Below, in pieces: positions 3,765 to 29,755 of a DNA stretch of 64,000 bases (position 1 is its first letter; every line of letters begins with the position of its first letter). A model generated the notes under the pieces. It was not told the DNA's origin and did not search any database. It saw only the letters and a program-made list of their open reading frames with translations. The DNA comes from Solirubrobacter pauli. Its GTDB lineage: Bacteria > Actinomycetota > Thermoleophilia > Solirubrobacterales > Solirubrobacteraceae. The stretch covers positions 62,001-126,000 of the forward strand of contig NZ_RBIL01000003.1 of assembly GCF_003633755.1 (NCBI RefSeq), written 5' to 3'. A program made the position numbers and the translations under genes.

Positions 3765-4517
3765 TCAGATGACCAGCCGCTTGCGGTACTCGCGGCCGGT
3801 CGTGTCGCGCCACGTGATCTCGTCGAGCCCGCGCTGCTGGAACTCCAGCCGGTTGTCCCGGACCCGGCGCTGGACCTGCGCCCCGGACTTCAGGTGCAGG
3901 GTGATGCGCTCGACGCCGTCGGGGAACAGCAGGAAGTAGATCGGCGGGGCGCCGCGGGGCGCCTTGGTGCGCGACCACATCGGCGACGCGAGCGTCGGAA
4001 AGCCGGGACTGCAGCTGACGCCGAACGTCCGGCCCCGCGACCGGGCGACGGTGCAGAGCCCCGGCTTGCCGTCCCACAGGCCGGGCATCAGGTACTCCTC
4101 GAAGTTGTCGCGCCGCTTGACCCGGCGCGCGAGCGACCAGTCCACCCGCTGCGGCACGAGCCGCAAGTTCGGCTTCGGGCGCTCAGCGAGGCGATCGGAG
4201 GCGCGCGGGGGGCGCCGGAAGATCCCCAGCGTGCGCTGCGCCTCGGCACGCGCCTCGTCCAGCGTCGCCGCGGGCGTGCTCGGGTCGCGCCGGCTGGGCG
4301 TGAACGGGTTGGGCGCAGCCGTCTCGGTGGGCGCGGGCGTGGTGACGGCCGGCACCTCGTCGCGGTGCCGGTCACCGCCGGCGAGCACCACGCCGGCGGC
4401 CCCGGCGGCGACCGCCGCGGGCATCGCGAGCCGCAGCGCCAGCCACCGGCGACGGCGCCGCACCGTGCGCTCGGCCACGCCCCGGACGAGCTCGCGCAGC
4501 TCCGGTACGTCAGACAT
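3765..4517 (-). CDS. Single-pass membrane protein downstream of an ECF sigma factor
   Basis: The function is unknown. It is a 250-residue protein with a basic cytoplasmic N-terminus (RRRRR around residue 20), one membrane segment at about 30-47, and a Pro/Thr-rich linker. The outside domain has two cysteines (GLCTVARS, GVSCSPG). It overlaps the upstream sigma gene by 8 bp, so the two are almost certainly cotranscribed and translationally coupled. That is the usual place for an anti-sigma factor. However, the N-terminus lacks the His-x3-Cys-x2-Cys zinc motif of the common anti-sigma domain, so an anti-sigma role is only inferred from position. The gene ends close to the convergent RTX gene. 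Confidence 0.75.
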   Translation of the reverse strand: MSDVPELRELVRGVAERTVRRRRRWLALRLAMPAAVAAGAAGVVLAGGDRHRDEVPAVTTPAPTETAAPNPFTPSRRDPSTPAATLDEARAEAQRTLGIFRRPPRASDRLAERPKPNLRLVPQRVDWSLARRVKRRDNFEEYLMPGLWDGKPGLCTVARSRGRTFGVSCSPGFPTLASPMWSRTKAPRGAPPIYFLLFPDGVERITLHLKSGAQVQRRVRDNRLEFQQRGLDEITWRDTTGREYRKRLVI

Positions 4518-5064
4518 CGTCGTGCTCCACGATCGTTCTCAGGGTCAACAGCCCGCGGCTGACGTGCTTGCGCGCGACGAGCGCCGAGCACCGCATGCGC
4601 TCCGCCAGCTCCGGATAGCTCAGCTCCTCGATCACCCGCGCGCGCACCGCCTCGGCCTCGCGCGGACGCAGCTGCGCGAGCAGTTCCTCCGCCGTCCGGC
4701 TGCCCAGCTGGTCGACGCGCTCGAGCCGCTCGTCGAGCAGCTCCAGCCGCGGCGCGCCCAGCTTGCGTCGCGCCCGCGCCTCCACCTCGCCGCGCTGGAT
4801 CGAGCGCAACAGCTTGTGCCGCGCGATCCCGAGCAACCACGCCACCGCCGGCCCCTCCGACGCCCGATAGCGCTTGACGGACGCGAGCGCCGCGACGAAC
4901 GTCTCGGCGGCCAGGTCGATCGCGACGTCCGACGACGCCGTGCGCTTGCGCAGATACCCGAGCACCAACCGCTCGTGGCGCAGGTAGAACTGATCGAACG
5001 CCGCCGCCTGCCGCGGCGTCAACCGCAGCAGCTCCTCGTCGCTCAGATGGGTCAGATCAGCCAC
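4510..5064 (-). CDS. ECF-type RNA polymerase sigma factor
   Basis: This sigma-70-family factor of 184 residues should direct RNA polymerase to a small regulon. Region 2 is visible at about residues 25-95 (QFYLRHERLVLGYL, then AAETFVAALASVKRYR, with GPAVAWLLGIARHKL for promoter melting). Region 4 lies at 130-180 with a helix-turn-helix (LSYPELAERMRCSALVARKHVSRGL). The start is GTG at 5064. The downstream membrane protein overlaps by 8 bp, suggesting a sigma/regulator pair. Divergent transcription of a small membrane gene starts at 5188, and the 123-bp gap between them should carry the promoters. Confidence 0.88.
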   Translation of the reverse strand: MADLTHLSDEELLRLTPRQAAAFDQFYLRHERLVLGYLRKRTASSDVAIDLAAETFVAALASVKRYRASEGPAVAWLLGIARHKLLRSIQRGEVEARARRKLGAPRLELLDERLERVDQLGSRTAEELLAQLRPREAEAVRARVIEELSYPELAERMRCSALVARKHVSRGLLTLRTIVEHDDV

Positions 5065-5108
5065 TACTCATCGCTTCACGCTGCGTCCCGAAACGTGACA
5101 CGCAGCCT

Positions 5109-5125
5109 GACGCCCGTCGGGCGTC
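5109..5125. repeat. Short hairpin in the sigma / membrane-protein divergent gap
   Basis: A perfect 7-bp stem (GACGCCC / GGGCGTC) with a 3-nt loop sits midway between the start of the ECF sigma gene (5064) and that of the small membrane gene (5188). It could be an operator or simply a GC-rich palindrome; there is no T-run, so it is not a typical terminator. Confidence 0.35.
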
Positions 5126-5187
5126 GCGGGCATGGCCGACCGCGGCCCGGGGTACGTGCGTCGCATGCCCGCGAACCCGCATCGCGC

Positions 5188-5496
5188 ATGAGCACTCGCG
5201 TGGCGCTCGCGATCGGCCTCGTGTGCGTGCTCGCCACGTTCCTGTTCCTGCACACGGGATCGCGCGCGGCCGAGCTGTGCGCACGCGACGGCGCGGCGGT
5301 TCCGGATGGGCTTTCCTGGTGGCCCCCTGGGGCGCGCTGCGCCGGTGGCGAGCCGGTCCGCGCCACGACGAGGTTCGACCCCGTCGCCGGGCTGGCGGTC
5401 CCTGGGATCGCGCTGCTGGCGTTCGGCGCGGCGGCGCTCGTCGAGTCGCCACGACGCCGCCGCCCGACAGGATCGGGCGGGGCGCGCGAAGTTTGA
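5188..5496 (+). CDS. Small two-TM membrane protein
   Basis: This is a 102-residue protein of unknown function. The N-terminus (MSTRVALAIGLVCVLATFLF) is a membrane segment or uncleaved signal anchor. A second hydrophobic segment lies at about 68-86, followed by a basic tail (PRRRRP). Between them is an exported loop with two cysteines. ATG 5188 is the only start that removes the overlap with the sigma gene; the frame extending back to 3964 is antisense to real genes. It ends 46 bp before the c-di-GMP enzyme and could share its transcript. Confidence 0.6.
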   Translation: MSTRVALAIGLVCVLATFLFLHTGSRAAELCARDGAAVPDGLSWWPPGARCAGGEPVRATTRFDPVAGLAVPGIALLAFGAAALVESPRRRRPTGSGGAREV

Positions 5497-5542
5497 CCTG
5501 CTGACCGCTCAAGTTCGCTTGCCGTCGGACGATCTCCCAGGC

Positions 5543-7201
5543 GTGGTCCGCCGGCCATCAGCACTGTTCACGGTCGCCGTCTGGGGCGGCGTGCTCGCTG
5601 TGCTGGGAATGGCCTGCGCGCTGGTGATCGACGCGCGCGGCGCCGCCGCGGCCTCGCGCCAGGCGTCGGCCAGCGACCGCATCAGCTACGCGCTGCGGGA
5701 GGCGTACGTCGCCCACAGCCGCGAGCAGAGCGCGCTGCTCACGCGCGACGAGACCGCGCACGAGCGGGCCTCGGATGACGTCGACGCGGCGCTGGCCGAG
5801 GCGGGGTCCGCCGCGACGAGCCTGCGGTCCGACCATGACTCCTACCGGCGCTTCGCCGACCCGGTGTTCGACGACTCCGCGAGCGCGGACGTGGCACGCG
5901 CGCTGGCCGCGTACCTCGGGAACGCGCTCGGCCGTGAGGCGGACGCCGCCACCGATCGGGCGCGCGGCCTCGGCGAGCAGGCGAGCGCGAAGCTGGACAC
6001 CGTCATCCGCGGCGCGATGATCGTGATCGTCACCGCGGCGTGCATCTTCACGCTGCTCGGCCTGCTGCTGCGCGCGCAGCGGCGGCGGCTCAGCGCCGCC
6101 CGGGCGGCGGAGCTCGAGCGCCTCGCGGAGATGGCCAGCTCGGACCCGCTGACCGGCCTGCGCAACCACCGGGTCTTCCACGAGGACCTCGCGCGCGAGC
6201 TGCAGCACGCCAGCCGCACCGGGCTGCCGCTCGCGCTGGCGCTGGTCGACCTCGACGACCTCAAGACGCTCAACGACACGCACGGCCACCAGGCCGGGGA
6301 CGAGCGGATCCGCGCGCTCGCCGACACGCTGCGCGCGACGATGCGCGGCGCCGACCAGGCCTACCGCATCGGCGGGGACGAGTTCGCCGTCATCCTCCCC
6401 GACACGCGGGCGTGGGGCGCGCTCGAGTTCGCGCAGCGGCTGCGGGCCGCGCTGCCCGGCTTCACCGCCACGGCCGGCATCGCCGAAGCCGAGACGTTGC
6501 GCCCCCGCGACGAGCTCATCCGCGAGGCCGACATGGCGCTGCTGCGCGCGAAGGCGCTGCGCCAGCACGTCGCGGTCTACACGGTCGAGATGGCCCCGAA
6601 GAGCGATGCGCCGCGGGTCGACGAGCGGCACACCCAGACGCTCGCCTCCGCGCTCGCGCGCGCCGTGGACGCGAAGGACTCGTACACGCGCAGCCACTGC
6701 CAGACCGTGTCCGAGCTCGCCGCGCTGATCGCCACCGAGCTCGGCTTCACCGGCGACCGGCTGGCCCGCATGCGGCTCGCCGGCCTGCTGCACGACGTCG
6801 GCAAGATCGGCGTCCCGGACCACATCCTCAACAAGCCCGCCGCGCTCACCGACGACGAGTACAAGGTCATGCAGGCGCACGCCGTGCTCGGGTTCGAGAT
6901 CGTGCAGGCCGCGGGCCTCCCCCAGGAGGCGCAGTGGGTGCGCCACCACCACGAGCGCGTCGACGGCCGCGGCTACCCGGACGGGCTCGCCGGCGACGCG
7001 ATCCCGCCCGAGTCGCGCATCATCCTCGTCGCCGACGCCTACGAGGCGATGACGTCCGATCGCCCGTACCGCAACGCTCCCGGGCAGACCTTCGCCGTCG
7101 AGGAGCTGCAGCGCGGCGCCGGCACGCAGTTCGACGCGCGTGTCGTCGAGGCGCTCTGCCGCGTGGTCGACCGGCTCGGTCAGACGCACGCCGCGCGCTG
7201 A
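5543..7201 (+). CDS. Membrane GGDEF / HD-GYP c-di-GMP enzyme
   Basis: This is a two-headed cyclic-di-GMP enzyme of 552 residues: the GGDEF half makes c-di-GMP from GTP and the HD-GYP half hydrolyses it. TM1 at about 10-28 and TM2 at about 160-185 flank an exported helical sensor region. GGDEF is intact at residues 277-281 (YRIGGDEFAVILP). It is preceded by RGAD five residues upstream, which matches the RxxD product-inhibition site. The HD pair is at 417-418 (HDVGKIGVPDHIL), with HHERVDGRGYPDGL at about 470-483. GTG 5543 was chosen because earlier starts overlap the preceding gene and precede TM1 with an unlikely basic stretch. Both active sites look complete, so which activity dominates cannot be told. 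The 3' end overlaps the convergent 2H gene by 22 bp. Confidence 0.9.
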   Translation: MVRRPSALFTVAVWGGVLAVLGMACALVIDARGAAAASRQASASDRISYALREAYVAHSREQSALLTRDETAHERASDDVDAALAEAGSAATSLRSDHDSYRRFADPVFDDSASADVARALAAYLGNALGREADAATDRARGLGEQASAKLDTVIRGAMIVIVTAACIFTLLGLLLRAQRRRLSAARAAELERLAEMASSDPLTGLRNHRVFHEDLARELQHASRTGLPLALALVDLDDLKTLNDTHGHQAGDERIRALADTLRATMRGADQAYRIGGDEFAVILPDTRAWGALEFAQRLRAALPGFTATAGIAEAETLRPRDELIREADMALLRAKALRQHVAVYTVEMAPKSDAPRVDERHTQTLASALARAVDAKDSYTRSHCQTVSELAALIATELGFTGDRLARMRLAGLLHDVGKIGVPDHILNKPAALTDDEYKVMQAHAVLGFEIVQAAGLPQEAQWVRHHHERVDGRGYPDGLAGDAIPPESRIILVADAYEAMTSDRPYRNAPGQTFAVEELQRGAGTQFDARVVEALCRVVDRLGQTHAAR

Positions 7202-21940: not shown

Positions 21941-24700
21941 TCAGGCGCGGGCGAGCCCGTCGTCGACGGTGAGCGGGAGCGCGTCCCGCAGCGCCCGCCG
22001 CGAGCTGATGCCGAGCTTGCTGAACACCTTCTTGAGGTGCCACTCGACCGTGCGCGGCGAGAGGAACAGCTCGGCGCCGATCTCCGGATTGGACAGCCCG
22101 TCGCGCGCGAGCCGGGCGATGTGCTGCTCCTGCGGGGTGAGGTCGTCGCGCGTGTCGTCGCGCCGGGCGCGCACCTTCTCCCCCGTGGCGAGCAGCTCGC
22201 GCCGCGTGCGCTCGACGAAGCCCTCCGCGCCCATGGCCAGGAACGCCTCGCGGGCCACGCGCAGCTGCTCGCGTGCGTCCACGCGCCGCCCTTCGCGGCG
22301 CAGCCACTCGCCGTACAGGAGGCGGGAGCGCGCGAGCTCGAGGCGGACACGCGTGCGCCCGAGCCGCTCGATCGACTCGAGGTACCAGCGCTCGGCCTCC
22401 TCGCCGCCCAGCAGCGCGCGCACCCGCGCGTCGATGCCCAGCGCCCAGTCACCCGGCGGGTCCGGCGTGTGCTCCTCCAGCCGCGCGAGCGCCGCGCGGA
22501 CCAGCGCCTCGTCCCCGACCCGCGAGGCCGCTTCGGCCAGCTCGCCGACGACGAACGGCGTGTACGCGAGGTCGCCGCGCGTGTAGGCGCGCCGCGCGGC
22601 CTCGAGCGCCGCGTCGTAGCGGGCGAGGCCGTTGTAGAGCACGGCCGCCTCGCAGTCGGCGAACTGGACGACGCGGCCCATCCCCAGCGCCTGCGCCTCA
22701 CGCGTCTCGCGCTCGATCAGCTTGAGCGTCAGCGCCTCCTGGCCACGCCAGGCGGTCAGCAGCATCTCGGTGTAGAGCACGGGCGTGGTGCCGGTCGCCT
22801 CGGCGATCGCACGCACCTCCTCGATCGCTTGCGCCGCGCCGGCGAGGTCGCCGTCGAGCACCCGTACCCGCACGAGCGAGGCCAGGCCGAACTGCAGCAG
22901 CACGAGCGCTCCCATGTCGCGCGCGACCTGCACGTGCCGCGTCACGAGCGCGTGCCAGCCGTCGGCGTCCCACAGCTCCATCGCGGCGATCGATCCGGAC
23001 CGCGACCCGGTGAGCCACAGCCAGCGGCCGACGTCGTCGCCGACGTCCAGCGCCAGCGCCGCGTCCACCGCCGCGCGCAGCGCGGGCGCCGCCGCCGCGT
23101 AGCCCTCGCACACGCGGGTCGCGAGCGCGTCCACGAGCAGCCGCACCGGCTCCGGAGCGTCCGGGGCCGGCGGCGCGGCCAGCGCGGCGGCCGACGCCTC
23201 GCGCAACGGGCCGGGCCCCGCCCACATCCCCGCGCCGAGCGCCTTCAGATGGGTGGTGAGCGCGCGCGTGGCGTCCAGCGCGTCGAGCTGCCGCGCCGCG
23301 TGGCTGAGCCGCTCGGCGGCCTCCCCCGCACGCCGCTGGTCGAACGCGATCTCGCCGCGCAGCTGCTCGATCTCCGCCGCCTGGAACGCGCTCACGGGCC
23401 CCGCCTCGATCGCGACGAGCAGTCCGAGCGCGGCGTCCAGCGCGCCCGCGTCGCGCTTGGCCCGCGCCGCGGCGACCAGCCGGCGTGCGCGCGCCTCGGG
23501 CTCGGGCGTGAGCGTCCCGGCGGTCTCCAGGAACGCCGCGGCCGCCGCGATGCCGCCGCGGGCCAGCGCGCGTCCGGCCGAGTGCTCGAGCTCCTGGGCG
23601 ACGTGCTCGTCCGGCGCGGCGGTCGCCTGCGCGCGGTGCCACGCGCGCCGGTCGGGGTCGTGCTCGGCGTCGGTGGCCTCGGCCAGCGCGAAGTGCACGG
23701 CCTGCCGCTCCTCCGGCGTGGCCGACCGGTAGGCGGCGGAGCGCACCGACGGATGGCGGAACCGCACCTGCGCGCCGATCTCCAGCAGGCCGGCGTCCGC
23801 CGCGGCGCCCGCCGCCTCCGGCCCGATCCCGAGTCGGCCGGCCGCGCGCCACAGCAGCAGCGGCTCGCCGACCGGATCGGCCGCCGCGAGTTGCAGGAGG
23901 CGCCGGGTGGCGGTCGGGAGCGAGTCGAGCCGGCGCTGGAAGCTGTCCTCGAGCACGGCCGGGCCGGGCCGTCCGAACCCGCCCGCCAGCTCGGCCGCGC
24001 TCATCCCGCGGGGAAGCTCCAGCAGCGCGAGCGGGTTGCCACGCGTCTCGGCGATGAGCCGCTCGCGCACGTGGTCGTCCAACCGCCCCGGGACGACCGT
24101 CGCCAGCAACGCGCGCGCGTCCTCGTGCCCGAGCCCTTTCAGCCACAGCTCCGGCAACCCCGGCAGCCGCCGCGGCTCGCTCGGCTCGCGGACGCCGAAC
24201 ACCATCGCCACGTGCTCGGCGAGCAGGCGCCGCGCGACGAAGCCGAGCACCTGCGCCGACGCCTCGTCGAGCCACTGCAGGTCGTCGACCAGGCACAGCA
24301 GCGGCTGCGTGTCGGCGACGTGGGCGAGCAGCGTGAGCGTGGCCAGGCCGACCAGGAAGCGGTCGCGCGGCGCGCCGGACGCCAGGCCGAACGACACCTG
24401 CAGCGCGTCCTGCTGCGGAGCCGGCAGGGCGTCGAGCTCGTCGAGGAGCGGGCCGCACAGCTGGTGCAGGCCCGCGAACGGCAGCTCCATCTCGGACTCG
24501 ACGCCGCCGACCTGCAGCACGCGGAACCCGTCCGCCGCGCCGGCCGTGTGCTGCAGGAGCGCGGTCTTGCCGACCCCGGCCTCCCCGCGCAGCACGAGCG
24601 CGCCGCTGCGTCCCACGCGGGCACCGTCGAGCAGCCGCTCCAGCGTCTCGCGCTCGCTGGAGCGGCCTCGGAAGGCGGGCGGGCGCGGGGCGGCGGCCAT
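21941..24700 (-). CDS. Large ATP-binding LuxR-type transcription regulator (LAL/MalT-like)
   Basis: This is a 919-residue regulator. The N-terminal AAA/STAND ATPase has Walker A GEAGVGKTALL (about 37-47) and Walker B LLCLVDDLQWLD. A long middle region of TPR-like helical repeats follows. The C-terminal LuxR helix-turn-helix is LTPQEQHIARLARDGLSNPEIGAELF continuing to FLSPRTVEWHLKKVFSKL. ATP and ligand binding usually release the DNA-binding domain. ATG 24700 is preferred because an AGG lies about 10 bases upstream; GTG 24733 has a purine tract abutting it. The gene lies 42 bp downstream-facing from the subtilase 3' end but on its own transcript. A paralogue is at 35211. Confidence 0.88.
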   Translation of the reverse strand: MAAAPRPPAFRGRSSERETLERLLDGARVGRSGALVLRGEAGVGKTALLQHTAGAADGFRVLQVGGVESEMELPFAGLHQLCGPLLDELDALPAPQQDALQVSFGLASGAPRDRFLVGLATLTLLAHVADTQPLLCLVDDLQWLDEASAQVLGFVARRLLAEHVAMVFGVREPSEPRRLPGLPELWLKGLGHEDARALLATVVPGRLDDHVRERLIAETRGNPLALLELPRGMSAAELAGGFGRPGPAVLEDSFQRRLDSLPTATRRLLQLAAADPVGEPLLLWRAAGRLGIGPEAAGAAADAGLLEIGAQVRFRHPSVRSAAYRSATPEERQAVHFALAEATDAEHDPDRRAWHRAQATAAPDEHVAQELEHSAGRALARGGIAAAAAFLETAGTLTPEPEARARRLVAAARAKRDAGALDAALGLLVAIEAGPVSAFQAAEIEQLRGEIAFDQRRAGEAAERLSHAARQLDALDATRALTTHLKALGAGMWAGPGPLREASAAALAAPPAPDAPEPVRLLVDALATRVCEGYAAAAPALRAAVDAALALDVGDDVGRWLWLTGSRSGSIAAMELWDADGWHALVTRHVQVARDMGALVLLQFGLASLVRVRVLDGDLAGAAQAIEEVRAIAEATGTTPVLYTEMLLTAWRGQEALTLKLIERETREAQALGMGRVVQFADCEAAVLYNGLARYDAALEAARRAYTRGDLAYTPFVVGELAEAASRVGDEALVRAALARLEEHTPDPPGDWALGIDARVRALLGGEEAERWYLESIERLGRTRVRLELARSRLLYGEWLRREGRRVDAREQLRVAREAFLAMGAEGFVERTRRELLATGEKVRARRDDTRDDLTPQEQHIARLARDGLSNPEIGAELFLSPRTVEWHLKKVFSKLGISSRRALRDALPLTVDDGLARA

Positions 24701-24742
24701 GTCGTCGCAACCTACTAAAGGCCGCTGCCCCACTCCCGAGCG

Positions 24743-25948
24743 CTAGTCGCTCTGCCCCCAGAGCAGCGTCGGGGCCACGACCTTCGCGCCCGGGAAGTCG
24801 GCCGGCGCCGTCGCCGAGAGCGACTGCAGGAGCGTCACGGCGTCCACCGCGCTGATCCCGCCCGCGGCCATCAGGGCGGCGAGCTGGCCGACGACCAGCG
24901 GCGTGGAGAACGACGTGCCGCCCCAGCGCGCCCAGCCGCCGTACGGCTGCGGCTGCTGGGTCCACTCGAGGTACGGGCCCTCGTTGAGGCCGCGCGCGAC
25001 GAAGTCGACCCACGTGCCGTAGTTGCTGTACGCGGCCCGCGCCCACTGGTTGTTGACGCGCACGACCGCGCCGACCGACACCGTGCGGTCGGTGTCGGCG
25101 GCCGGGTACCACGGCCGGTCGTCGTCCTCGTTGCCGGCCGCGGCGACGATCACCACGCCCTCGTTCTGCAGCGTCTCCAGCGCGTAGCCGATCGCCAGCG
25201 GCGGCTCGTCGAACAGCGTGTAGTAGCCGAGCGACAGGTTGACCAGGTGCGGGATCTCGCCGCTGATCATGATCTGGTGCAGCTGGGTCAGCAGCGTCGT
25301 GTCGGTGCCGATGCCGTTGCCGTCGAGCACCACCCGCGGCGTCATGATCGTCGCGCCGGGGGCGACGCGGAGGATCTGGCCGATCACGAACGTGCAGTGG
25401 CCCGCGGCCGGGGCCAGGTCGCCGGAGAGCGGCGGGTCCTCGGGCGGCGGCACCGACGGCACCGGCGGCGGGAAGACCGGGTCGACCTTCGGCGACGCGT
25501 TGTAGGCCGTGTCGAGCACCAGGACCTTGATGCCGGCGCCGATCGCGCTCGGGACGATGTCCAGGTCCGGCATCGTCACCGGATCGGGCACCGCGTACAC
25601 GCCGCCGCGCATCTGCGGCGCGCCGTGGATGTAGTTGGGCTGGACGATGAGCGGCTCTTCCTCGCTGCTGGAGGCGCGCGGCTTGCTCTCGCCCACGAGG
25701 ACCTTCATGGCGTCTTCGACGAGGTCCTCGGGGCTCGTGTCGCCCTCCGGCGTGAGCCGCAGGAGCTTGAACGGCCCCATCGGCGGCGCCTTCTCGTCGA
25801 CGGTCGCCTCGATGCCGACCGCCTTGAGCGCCTCCTGGACCGCTTGAATCGACTGGTCCCCCACGATGAGGACGTCGGGCTCGTACACCGGCCCCGATGG
25901 ATCCGGGTCCTGGCGCGACGAATCGCCCGTCCCGCGGTAGCGCTGCAT
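24743..25948 (-). CDS. Cytoplasmic subtilisin-family (S8) serine protease
   Basis: This is a 401-residue subtilase with an intact triad: Asp146 (VLVLDTAYN), His184 (GHCTFVIG) and Ser346 (GGTSFSTP), plus oxyanion Asn273 (AAAGNED). Residues 21-110 resemble an I9-like prodomain ending in VQPNYIHG, so autoprocessing is possible. There is no signal peptide or membrane segment, so it should act inside the cell, unlike most subtilases. ATG 25948 follows a textbook ribosome site (GGAGACGATC); the longer frame to 26272 would overlap the sigma gene. It is divergent from a sigma/TPR-CHAT operon with a 90-bp shared control region, which suggests the two proteases belong to one regulatory module. Confidence 0.88.
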   Translation of the reverse strand: MQRYRGTGDSSRQDPDPSGPVYEPDVLIVGDQSIQAVQEALKAVGIEATVDEKAPPMGPFKLLRLTPEGDTSPEDLVEDAMKVLVGESKPRASSSEEEPLIVQPNYIHGAPQMRGGVYAVPDPVTMPDLDIVPSAIGAGIKVLVLDTAYNASPKVDPVFPPPVPSVPPPEDPPLSGDLAPAAGHCTFVIGQILRVAPGATIMTPRVVLDGNGIGTDTTLLTQLHQIMISGEIPHLVNLSLGYYTLFDEPPLAIGYALETLQNEGVVIVAAAGNEDDDRPWYPAADTDRTVSVGAVVRVNNQWARAAYSNYGTWVDFVARGLNEGPYLEWTQQPQPYGGWARWGGTSFSTPLVVGQLAALMAAGGISAVDAVTLLQSLSATAPADFPGAKVVAPTLLWGQSD

Positions 25949-25980
25949 GATCGTCTCCTGGTTGTTCTGAGGCTGGACCG

Positions 25981-26010
25981 GCACGCTAACCGAGGGCCGC
26001 GATAGCGTGC
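25981..26010. promoter_or_regulatory. Inverted repeat in the subtilase/sigma divergent promoter
   Basis: GCACGCTA at 25981-25988 and its exact complement TAGCGTGC at 26003-26010 are 14 bp apart. Each arm reads TAGCGTGC towards one of the two genes, ending about 28 bp before the sigma ATG and 32 bp before the protease ATG. It could be a dimer operator, or two copies of one promoter element read by the same sigma factor in opposite directions. Confidence 0.55.
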
Positions 26011-26038
26011 ATGTCGAGAATGCCGTTGAAGAAGCACC

Positions 26039-26599
26039 ATGGGTGAGACCGGGGATCTCGTCGAGCGTGCACGCGACGGCGATCGGGATGCCTGGAACGA
26101 GTTGGTGGACCGGTTCGCCCGGATGGTCCTCGCGGTCGCCGCGTCGAACGGCGTCCGCCCCGCCGACCGCGACGACGTGGCCCAGGTCACGTGGCTCAAG
26201 CTCGCTCAAAACCTTGACCGCATCGAACGTCCGGACGCAGTCGGGGCATGGCTCGCGATGACGTGCCGCCACGAGGCACTGCGCGTGCGCGCGCGGGGCG
26301 CGCGCGAGATCCCGGTCGAGGACGAGGCCTTCGCGAGGCTCGCCGACGACACCGACGTCGAGGACGAAGCACTGCGCTCGATCCCCGACAACGAACTTCC
26401 CGCGGCGTTCGCAAAATTGTCAGATCGCTGTCAAACGCTGCTGCGGCTGCTGCTGCTGGAGCGCCCGTACAGCGAGATCTCCGAGATCCTGGGCATGCCC
26501 ATCGGCGGCATCGGCCCGACCCGTTCGCGCTGCCTGGACAAGCTCCGGCGGCTCCTGCCGAACGCTTCCGGTATCACGCGGTCCTCGAAGGACTCTTAA
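26039..26599 (+). CDS. Sigma-70 family factor of the protease module
   Basis: This is a 186-residue ECF-like sigma factor. Region 2 lies at about 10-90 (DGDRDAWNELVDRFARMVLAV; DRDDVAQVTWLKLAQNLDRI; VGAWLAMTCRHEALR). An acidic linker of about 25 residues (VEDEAFARLADDTDVEDEA) follows. Region 4 is at 125-175 (LSDRCQTLLRLLLLERPYSEISEIL, then GGIGPTRSRCLDKLRRLL). GAAGAAG precedes ATG 26039. It is followed after 4 bp by the 144-residue protein and then the TPR-CHAT protease. There is no anti-sigma gene of the usual kind, so its control may be proteolytic. Confidence 0.88.
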   Translation: MGETGDLVERARDGDRDAWNELVDRFARMVLAVAASNGVRPADRDDVAQVTWLKLAQNLDRIERPDAVGAWLAMTCRHEALRVRARGAREIPVEDEAFARLADDTDVEDEALRSIPDNELPAAFAKLSDRCQTLLRLLLLERPYSEISEILGMPIGGIGPTRSRCLDKLRRLLPNASGITRSSKDS

Positions 26600-26603
26600 C
26601 GGT

Positions 26604-27038
26604 ATGGATCACTTCAGCGACGACCAGCTCATGGCCCTCTTGGCCGCCGGCGACGTTGTGCCGCAGGCGTCGGAGAGCTCGCTGGAGCTCGCGCGCATGG
26701 CCTTCGACTGGCGCACCCTGGACGCCGAGCTCGCCGAGCTCGTGGCCGACTCCGCGCTCGAGCAGGCGGTCGCGCTTCGTGCCGCCGCCACACCGCGGCT
26801 CGTGAGCTTCGAGGGCCGGGACGTGTCGGTCGAGCTCGAGATCGCCGCCCGCGACGAGGAGCGCGTCATCACGGGGCAGCTGTTCCCGCCGCAGGAGGCC
26901 ACGGTCGAGGTGGTCCGGCCGGTCGGCGCGCCGCTCACGGTCGACACCGACGTGGATGGGCGCTTCGTCGTCGAGGTCAAGGCCGGCCCGGTGGCGTTCG
27001 ACGTCCTCTCCATCCGCACGGACTGGTTGGTGACCTGA
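26604..27038 (+). CDS. Beta-rich protein between sigma factor and CHAT protease
   Basis: This is a 144-residue protein of unknown function. Residues 1-60 are helical and acidic (MDHFSDDQLMALLAAGD ... AFDWRTLDAELAELVADSAL). Residues 66-144 form a beta-sandwich-like domain (VSFEGRDVSVELEIAARDEE, ITGQLFPPQEATVEVVRP, DVDGRFVVEVKAGPVAFDVL), resembling carboxypeptidase-regulatory/transthyretin-like folds. A GAAGGA tract lies 11 bp before ATG 26604, and the next gene begins at its stop. Placement suggests a partner of the sigma factor (anti-sigma-like tether) or a CHAT substrate. The N-terminus begins like a short anti-sigma helix (SDDQLMALL) but has no zinc ligands. These roles are inference only. 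Confidence 0.8.
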   Translation: MDHFSDDQLMALLAAGDVVPQASESSLELARMAFDWRTLDAELAELVADSALEQAVALRAAATPRLVSFEGRDVSVELEIAARDEERVITGQLFPPQEATVEVVRPVGAPLTVDTDVDGRFVVEVKAGPVAFDVLSIRTDWLVT

Positions 27039-29755
27039 CCGCGCTGGCCCTCGCAGAACGCGCGCTGACGCTCGTCCAGAACGACGTCGAAGCGGCGGAC
27101 CGAGACGCGGCGCAGGCCCTCGAGCTTGCGCGCGAGCTGGAAGACCACGAAGCCGCGGCGGTCGCCGAGCGCGCCCGTGGGCTCATCCTCGTCGAACGCG
27201 GCGCCTCCGACGAGGCCGTGAAGGTGCTGCGCGGCGCCGTTCGCCTCGCCACGACGGCGGGCTTGCCCGTGCGCGCCGCCCAGGCGCGCTTCAGCCTCGC
27301 GTGGGCGCTCGCGTTGTGCGGGCGCGGCCGGGACGGGCTGCACGAGCTCGACCTCGCCCGCCCCGACCTCGACGGGCTGGACCTCGCGCGCGTGGAGATG
27401 CAGCACGGGATGGTGCTGCACAAGCTCGACCAGCACGCGACCGCGCTCGAGCACTACCGGCGCGCGCTCGTCGGCTTCCGCCGCCACGCGGACCGCCAGT
27501 GGGAGGCGCGCGTGCTCTGCAACCGCGGCATCCTGCACGCCGAGCGCGGCGCCTTCGCGATGGCCCGCGCCGACTTCACGCGCTCGGAGGCGCTCGAGCG
27601 CGAGGACGGCAACCTCCTCGGCGCCGCGCACATGGTCCAGAACCTCGGCTGGCTGGCGTCGATCGAGGGCCATGCGCCGGCCGCGTTCGCCGCCTATGAC
27701 CGCGCCGAGACCGCGATCCGCGCCGCCGGCGGGACGCTCACCGTGCTGGCGCTGGATCGGATCGCGTTGCTGCGGTCCGTCGCCCTGCACGACGAGGCGC
27801 GCGGCGTCGCGGAGCGCACGATCGCCGACCTCCAGCGCGGCGGCATGAGCGCGTACCGCGCGGAGGCCGCGCTCGAGCTGGCGGAGATCGCGCTGCGCCA
27901 GGGCGACCCGGCCGCCGCGCTCGCGCACGCCCGGCGCGCCCGTGACGCCTTCCGGCGCCAGGAGCGCCCACGCTGGAGCCTGCTGGCCGAGCTCGCGATC
28001 GTACGCGCCGCGCACGCGTCCGGCCAGCGCACGCGCGAGCAGCTCGCACGTGTCGAGACCGTGGCCGCGGCACTCGAGGCGGACGGCTGGCGCACGCTGG
28101 CCGTCGAGGCGCGCGTGGTGCACGCGGAGCTCGCGATCGCGCTCGGCGAGACCGGCACGGCCCGTGCGGTCGTGGCCAGGACCACGGGCGCGCGTGACCG
28201 CGGCGCCCCCGGCGGGCGGATCGCGGCGTGGCACGCCGAAGCGCTGCTGCGCGTGCACGAGGGACGTCCCGCGGCGGCTTCCCGGGCCGTGAACGCCGGC
28301 CTCAACGTGCTCGAGCAGCACCGCGCCGTGCTGGGCGCGACCGAGCTGCGCGCCCGGGCGGGCGTGCACGGCGAAGGGCTGGCGCGCATCGGCGTCCGCC
28401 TGGCCCTGGACCGCGGCGACGCCCGCGCGGTGCTCGCCGCGGCCGAGCGCCACCGGACGCAGGCGCTGCAGCTCCCGCCGGTGCGGCCGCCGGTCGACCC
28501 CGTCCTGGCCGGACTGCTCGGCGAGCTGCGCCACAGCGCGATGCGCCTCGACGAGGCGCGCCTGGAGGGCGAGGACACACGCGCGGCGGCGGCGCAGCTC
28601 GCGCGGCTCGAGCGCTCGATCGTCCAGCGCGCGCGCCACGCCGGCGCATGGGAAGCGCCGGACGCGTTCTCCGCCGCGGGGCTGGCCCCCGTGCTCGGCG
28701 AGCGGGCGCTGCTGGAGCTCGTCGAGGCCGACGGCCACCTGTACGCGGTCACGCTCGCCCGCGGCCGCGCGCGCCTGCACGCGGTCGGCACGCTCGCGGA
28801 GGCCCAGCAGCAGCTCGAGAGCCTGCGCTTCGCGCTGTTACGCCTCGTCGCCGGCCACGGCACCGCCCGCGGACGAGCGGCTTACGCAACGATGCGCGAC
28901 GCCGCCGCGGCGAGCCTCGAGGCGCAGCTCGCGCCGGCGCTCGCCGCCACGCGCGGGTTGCCGCTCGTGCTCGTGCCCACGCGGTCACTGCACACCTTGC
29001 CCTGGGCGGCGCTGCCGACGCTGCGCGAGCGGCCGTTCTCCGTCGCGCCGTCGGCGGCGCTGTGGCAGCGAGCGGCGACGAGCGCCCGCGCCGCGGGCGC
29101 CTCCGCGCCCGCAATCGCCGTGCCTGCAGCCGCCCCCGCGCCCGCAACCGCCGCTCCCGCGCCGGCCGCGGCCGCCCCGGCGCCCACCCCCGCGCACGCC
29201 GTCCCCGCGGTCGCCTCTCCCCTCGGCGGCACCCTCGCCGTCGCCGGCCCGGATCTCGCCTTGGCGCGGGAGGAGGTCGAGGCGGTCGCCGAGGCCGTGG
29301 GCGGCGCGACGATGCTCACGGGCGAGGCGGCGAGCGCCGCCGCGACGCTCGCCGCGCTCGACGGGTGCGCGCACGCCCACATCGCCGCGCACGGCACGTT
29401 CCGCGCGGACAACCCGCTGTTCTCGTCGCTGCAGCTGGCGGACGGCCCGCTGACCGTGTTCGACCTCGAGACGCTCAAGGACGCGCCACGGCGGATGGTC
29501 CTGTTCGCGTGCGACGCGGGCATCGCCGACGTGCAGCCGGGCGACGAGCTGATGGGCCTGACCGCCGCGCTGCTCGGGCTCGGCACCGCGACCGTGGTCG
29601 CCAGCGTCCTTCCGCTTCCGGATGCGGTGAGCGCGGCGCTCGCGCCGCAGCTCGCCCGCCGGCTGGCCGCGGGCGAGCCCGCCGACGCCGCGCTCGCCGC
29701 GCTGCGCGCCGACGAGCCGGGCGCGGTCGGGCTCGTGTGCTTCGGCGCCGGCTGA
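27035..29755 (+). CDS. TPR-CHAT caspase-like protease
   Basis: This is a clan CD cysteine protease of about 906 residues. About 550 residues of helical TPR-like repeats are followed by a C-terminal CHAT domain. The catalytic pair is intact: His in HIAAHGTF (about residue 786) and Cys in LFACDAG (about 826). An Ala/Pro-rich insert of about 40 residues (about 688-730) lies inside the CHAT region. TPR helices continue upstream of the first ordinary start codon (GTG 27218). The frame is open back to the previous gene with no ATG, GTG or TTG, so the likely start is CTG 27035, overlapping the upstream TGA as CTGA. If CTG is not used, translation would begin at 27218 and lose about 61 helical residues. 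Known TPR-CHAT proteases are activated by a sensor and cleave a neighbouring protein. Confidence 0.85.
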   Translation: MTALALAERALTLVQNDVEAADRDAAQALELARELEDHEAAAVAERARGLILVERGASDEAVKVLRGAVRLATTAGLPVRAAQARFSLAWALALCGRGRDGLHELDLARPDLDGLDLARVEMQHGMVLHKLDQHATALEHYRRALVGFRRHADRQWEARVLCNRGILHAERGAFAMARADFTRSEALEREDGNLLGAAHMVQNLGWLASIEGHAPAAFAAYDRAETAIRAAGGTLTVLALDRIALLRSVALHDEARGVAERTIADLQRGGMSAYRAEAALELAEIALRQGDPAAALAHARRARDAFRRQERPRWSLLAELAIVRAAHASGQRTREQLARVETVAAALEADGWRTLAVEARVVHAELAIALGETGTARAVVARTTGARDRGAPGGRIAAWHAEALLRVHEGRPAAASRAVNAGLNVLEQHRAVLGATELRARAGVHGEGLARIGVRLALDRGDARAVLAAAERHRTQALQLPPVRPPVDPVLAGLLGELRHSAMRLDEARLEGEDTRAAAAQLARLERSIVQRARHAGAWEAPDAFSAAGLAPVLGERALLELVEADGHLYAVTLARGRARLHAVGTLAEAQQQLESLRFALLRLVAGHGTARGRAAYATMRDAAAASLEAQLAPALAATRGLPLVLVPTRSLHTLPWAALPTLRERPFSVAPSAALWQRAATSARAAGASAPAIAVPAAAPAPATAAPAPAAAAPAPTPAHAVPAVASPLGGTLAVAGPDLALAREEVEAVAEAVGGATMLTGEAASAAATLAALDGCAHAHIAAHGTFRADNPLFSSLQLADGPLTVFDLETLKDAPRRMVLFACDAGIADVQPGDELMGLTAALLGLGTATVVASVLPLPDAVSAALAPQLARRLAAGEPADAALAALRADEPGAVGLVCFGAG

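Follow-up and report, generated by a model that had tools for sequence, protein, structure and literature searches.

Positions 24743-29755 of the window, by which we mean the whole 64-kb stretch of DNA analysed here from the 7.1 Mb actinobacterial genome of Solirubrobacter pauli, hold four genes: an S8 subtilase and, divergent from it, an extracytoplasmic function (ECF) sigma factor, a protein of 144 residues that we call M144, and a TPR-CHAT protease. This arrangement had been described in a first-pass annotation of the sequence and is borne out by gene calls and Pfam matches. We propose that the locus encodes a protease-controlled switch of the ECF54 type, in which the sigma factor would be held by M144 acting as a soluble anti-sigma factor and would be freed when the CHAT protease, with or without the subtilase, cuts M144. 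Based on structure modelling and comparison of loci, we assign this reading a probability of roughly 0.55. The four-gene module itself is already on record as ECF54; the new point is M144 as its probable anti-sigma factor. An experimental study of the module was not found in the literature searched.

Loci were collected by a scan for relatives of M144 alone, which yielded 80 loci. Because the scan used only M144, the collection is unbiased towards the other three genes. All loci with a named taxonomic group belong to Actinomycetota, and two others stem from metagenome-assembled genomes labelled 'bacterium'. Among the 55 loci with at least 5 kb on either side of M144, a sigma gene is present in 53, a CHAT gene in 46, a subtilase gene in 44 and the complete set of four in 43. 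The idea that the four genes form a module, put to the test by their co-occurrence elsewhere, is upheld by these counts. Gene orders and orientations within the module vary widely among loci. Within an even sample of 396 genomes across the phylum, a CHAT gene lies at most 10 kb away from 25 of 37 M144 places, and CHAT occurs in 31 of the 33 genomes with M144 compared to 81 of 396 overall (Fisher p 7e-22, kinship not corrected for). CHAT genes are uncommon in the class, being present in 7 of 149 genomes, and the two found in the genome under study each adjoin a copy of M144. The association of the four genes is thus far beyond chance. With an improved profile, M144 is found in 130 of 395 sampled Actinomycetes genomes, and it is this distribution over about one third of the genomes by which the module matters. 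The sigma gene adjoins 192 of 202 M144 copies, in 190 cases on the same strand; sigma and M144 are the constant core of the module. Three genomes contain a sigma-M144 pair that lacks proteases, and in these CHAT and S8 genes, both module-type, are located side by side elsewhere. The genome under study also carries a second sigma-M144-CHAT locus (L012, 5161-8972), which has no neighbouring subtilase.

The ECF54 group (Casas-Pastor 2021, Huang 2015, as cited in PMC8999054) is characterized in that review as actinobacterial ECF sigma factors with carboxypeptidase, subtilase and CHAT neighbours. Subtilase and CHAT are both present at the window locus, while a carboxypeptidase-like match (PF13620) is seen in relatives of M144 and not in the window copy. 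The ECF54 model species Geodermatophilus amargosae has a homologous locus (L067), with a sigma factor beside M144 that shows 39.6% identity and is not confirmed as the model sigma SFT86700.1. Since the described neighbours match and the model species is among the M144 loci, the window locus is most likely a member of ECF54. PF13620 (CarboxypepD_reg) represents a carboxypeptidase regulatory-like, non-enzymatic fold. It matches 22 of 34 M144 relatives weakly (best E 4e-5), stays below threshold for the window copy, and is the only recurring Pfam match of M144, in which no peptidase domain was found. Because the C-terminal half of M144 resembles this fold, the 'carboxypeptidase' of the ECF54 literature is most likely M144, and what the review gives as a carboxypeptidase would here be a non-enzymatic regulatory-like domain.

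M144 is predicted to consist of two N-terminal helices (residues 7-16 and 25-58) followed by a seven-stranded C-terminal beta-sandwich. In the family alignment, the near-invariant motif WRTxDAELAxLxxDS sits on the N-terminal helices. No membrane segments were found in M144, and from its sequence the protein is soluble. The M144 profile yielded no sequence match to solved structures in the PDB, Csx30 included (best match E 0.49). Its partner, the window sigma factor, has 186 residues with only the sigma2 and sigma4 regions and shares 37-82% identity with the sigma factors at 79 M144 loci. For modelling with AlphaFold2, the two proteins were joined by Gly-Gly into a single chain, and nine further loci were paired in the alignment. 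The fused model has a predicted local distance difference test score (pLDDT) of 86 and a predicted template modelling score (pTM) of 0.61. Sigma2 and sigma4 jointly superpose on CnrH in its complex with CnrY over 150 residues with 3.2 A (Z 12.1, TM 0.72). The superposition extends over 155 residues with 4.6 A for SigW/RsiW and over 152 residues with 4.8 A for RpoE/NepR, and there is no fit to sigma bound to RNA polymerase (27 A). In the control prediction, sigma alone forms the same folded domains, with the helices of sigma2 and sigma4 present, but the alignment to CnrH covers a single domain (87 residues) and the chain as a whole fits with TM 0.55 and 8.6 A. As sigma alone does not adopt the sequestered arrangement, M144 drives this arrangement in the prediction. 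Modelling of the pair had been suggested in the first-pass annotation and, run here as a fused chain, returns the anti-sigma-bound arrangement. The two N-terminal helices of M144 are predicted to hold sigma2 and sigma4 much as the class II anti-sigma factor CnrY and NepR do. In contrast to these, M144 is predicted to be soluble and to carry a C-terminal beta-sandwich, and no similarity in sequence turned up in a comparison that did not include CnrY itself.

Covariation was analysed by corrected mutual information over 190 sigma-M144 pairs (effective 130). Ten of the top 25 couplings link the M144 helices with sigma regions 2.1/2.2, where 2.6 are expected by area. It is in these regions that known anti-sigma factors bind and block RNA polymerase (PMC7406223). 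Clade-preserving shuffles place 6.7 +/- 1.4 of the top 25 couplings there and reach 10 in 3 of 150 runs. A single coupling, between sigma 48 and M144 26, lies above the 95% level of the shuffle maxima. The fused-chain model and covariation make it plausible that the 144-residue protein is a regulated partner of sigma, as had been proposed, and M144 resembles an anti-sigma factor of the soluble kind.

A further line of evidence comes from the promoters. A de novo dyad search upstream of the sigma genes in the relatives' loci returned the four-base dyad GTAT-N17-GCTC at 17 loci, compared to about 0.7 in shuffles. As GTATC-N15-17-GCTC it precedes the sigma gene in 22 of 79 loci and the S8 gene in 10 of 60; ahead of M144 it occurs in 4 of 82, and ahead of CHAT never. 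The motif resembles the -35/-10 pair of ECF promoters, and with its position before sigma and S8 genes, the sigma factor probably transcribes its own operon and, in many cases, the subtilase gene as well. The paralogous locus L012 of the same genome carries GTATCA-N-GCTC in its promoter, GTATCAGCGCGCGGGCTCGGCGCTCTGT. Over the whole of this genome, GTATCA-N-GCTC has 9 sites versus 2 for a reversed-pattern control, mostly not ahead of genes, and in seven related genomes there is no excess over the control. A wider regulon derived from this motif was rejected for the lack of genome-wide enrichment, and therefore only local autoregulation can be claimed. An autoregulatory promoter in relatives would also be expected if M144 were a protease substrate or adaptor that does not inhibit sigma, with sigma controlled by its own transcription alone, and conservation of M144 is by itself no proof of inhibition. 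That sigma2 and sigma4 take up the bound arrangement only with M144 attached, together with the couplings to regions 2.1/2.2, makes this explanation quite unlikely to us. In Planotetraspora, four loci (L040, L041, L043 and L044) have GTATCA-N-GCTC upstream of sigma, and at L040 the motif also immediately precedes a gene whose product is AAA/LuxR-like. The inverted repeat between the subtilase and sigma genes of the window (Table 1) is the only match to its pattern in the window, with none in 100 shuffles, the pattern having been picked after being seen. It is almost unchanged in Solirubrobacter phytolaccae, the host of the closest M144 relative (74% identity for M144), and is possibly an operator.

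Several observations weigh against an ECF54 switch built on an anti-sigma factor and its cleavage. The fused model is covalent, is derived from one locus and comes with no estimate of inter-domain error. With clade structure preserved, covariation lends modest support. GTATCA-N-GCTC is absent from the promoters of the window locus, and a nearby subtilase is missing in 11 of the 55 well-flanked loci. The review, which likewise proposes proteolytic control, denies ECF54 an anti-sigma factor, whereas we predict M144 to be one. According to that published proposal, the proteases degrade sigma directly, and the 'carboxypeptidase'-like protein would be a further protease or an adaptor; the degradation of AntA by ClpXP is given in PMC8999054 as the proven case of a proteolysed ECF sigma factor. 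M144, however, has no peptidase domain and only a regulatory-like beta-sandwich as recurring Pfam match, and it is the most constant neighbour of sigma, with helices predicted to sequester it. We thus regard direct degradation of sigma as unlikely.

If M144 is an anti-sigma factor, its helices would wrap around sigma2 and sigma4 and keep sigma inactive, and the C-terminal beta-sandwich would serve as sensor or as docking domain for a protease. Recognition of an intracellular signal by the TPR part would activate the CHAT protease. CHAT, together with or after the cytoplasmic subtilase, would then cleave M144, and the released sigma factor would transcribe and so amplify its own locus, and in many relatives also the subtilase gene. 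Such cleavage would most likely be brought about by CHAT and perhaps by the subtilase too. With M144 in this role, an 'orphan' sigma group would gain a testable mechanism, namely regulated proteolysis in the cytoplasm and not at the membrane.

Both proteases appear catalytically intact, as had been noted before. In the TPR-CHAT protease, the codons of the catalytic residues lie at 29390-29392 (His) and 29510-29512 (Cys). Among family members covering each site, His is invariant in 61 of 61 and Cys in 62 of 62. A search of the PDB with the single CHAT sequence gave only spurious low-complexity matches. The first ATG, GTG or TTG in the TPR-CHAT frame is a GTG at 27218. It was rejected as start codon, being too late: in two species, conserved coding reaches upstream as far as the stop of M144. 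Translation likely begins at a CTG that overlaps the M144 stop as CTGA (27035-27038); alternatively, a -1 frameshift may yield an M144-CHAT fusion. The same arrangement of M144 stop and TPR-CHAT is seen in S. phytolaccae (L020). A natural fusion in L059 was not used, as it is the sole case and lies in a frameshifted draft.

In the subtilase, the triad Asp146/His184/Ser346, counted from the ATG at 25948 (MQRYRG...), is correct as annotated and invariant in 63 of 63 S8 relatives. Neither a signal peptide nor a transmembrane segment was found, and a hydrophobic segment is absent in the 61 family members checked. From its sequence, the subtilase is cytoplasmic, and the region ahead of the catalytic domain may be a pro-domain. 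The S8 profile matches intracellular subtilisins as well as subtilisin E. A longer mechanical open reading frame up to 26272 was rejected, its extra part being only antisense to sigma. A second module-type S8 gene of the same genome (L259, 4656-6191) is unlinked, on another contig, and apparently represents a branch of this subtilase family whose members are exported. Because its N-terminus is signal-peptide-like and it is located on another contig, this S8 is no clear partner of the module, and the 2:2:2 count of M144, CHAT and S8 in this genome was dropped as an indication of partner sets. At L054, a protein judged by eye to be like a trypsin-type protease (4162-5733, GDSGS motif, no Pfam match) adjoins CHAT in place of the subtilase, possibly a swap for another protease class.

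The closest functional parallel is the type III-E Craspase (Cas7-11/Csx29/Csx30/CASP-sigma), in which a TPR-CHAT protease cuts a proposed sigma inhibitor and frees sigma (PMC10028731). Both systems combine a TPR-CHAT protease with intact His/Cys, an ECF sigma factor and a proposed sigma inhibitor. The window locus differs in its additional subtilase and in M144, which is unlike Csx30 in sequence. No repeat array was detected within 15000-40000 of the window, and no Cas gene, as the first-pass annotation had stated, is among the flanking genes scanned (~20.0-31.7 kb), the rest of the genome not being searched. The CHAT profile matches Csx29 weakly (E 1.4e-5) and in the catalytic part only, and CHAT homology is thus distant. 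Csx30 is absent among the structure matches listed for the fused model, which excludes nothing. The parallel drawn in the first-pass annotation consequently stands for the TPR-CHAT and sigma parts as a functional analogy and does not extend to a close match with Csx29 or to a sequence match with Csx30. Tentatively, the module could be a CRISPR-free functional analogue of Craspase across Actinomycetota, in which TPR-CHAT protease and intracellular subtilase, possibly in sequence, act on a soluble anti-sigma factor of a new type with two helices and a beta-sandwich and release an ECF sigma factor, the trigger being read directly by the TPR domain. If so, the Craspase logic, in which CHAT cuts an inhibitor and sigma is freed, would be a general bacterial strategy beyond CRISPR. 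The annotation had further considered a stress- or invader-triggered, possibly suicidal switch, which would kill the cell or halt its growth once the protease is activated. The use of TPR-CHAT proteases by Craspase (PMC10028731) and known associations of caspase-like proteins with ECF sigma factors in bacterial conflict systems (PMC8195603) would fit such a role. No sign of invader sensing or suicide emerged, though. PADLOC returned only weak matches to generic protease models, and with no repeat array nearby, ordinary neighbouring genes and no toxic effector among the genes conserved in the module, we judge a conflict system to be improbable.

Table 1. Features of the four-gene locus in the window.
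Feature	Positions	Strand	Evidence or remark
S8 subtilase, 401 aa	24743-25948	-	Pfam Peptidase_S8, E 7e-18
Inverted repeat GCACGCTA-N14-TAGCGTGC	25981-26010		in the intergenic region of the divergent subtilase and sigma genes; candidate regulatory site
ECF sigma factor (sigma2 + sigma4), probably ECF54-type	26039-26599	+	Sigma70_r2 (Pfam), TIGR02937 E 8e-20
M144, 144 aa, candidate soluble anti-sigma factor	26604-27038	+	family alignment; PF13620 weakly in relatives; AlphaFold2 fusion model
TPR-CHAT protease	27035-29755 (start probably CTG 27035)	+	Pfam CHAT E 8e-27 and TPR matches

Adjoining the subtilase gene is a gene for an AAA_16-LuxR (LAL-type) regulator at 21941-24733 (-). The window also contains, at 3765-5064 (-), what is by reading of the sequence an ECF-like sigma gene and a gene downstream of it, whose product may, in contrast to M144, be a membrane anti-sigma factor.

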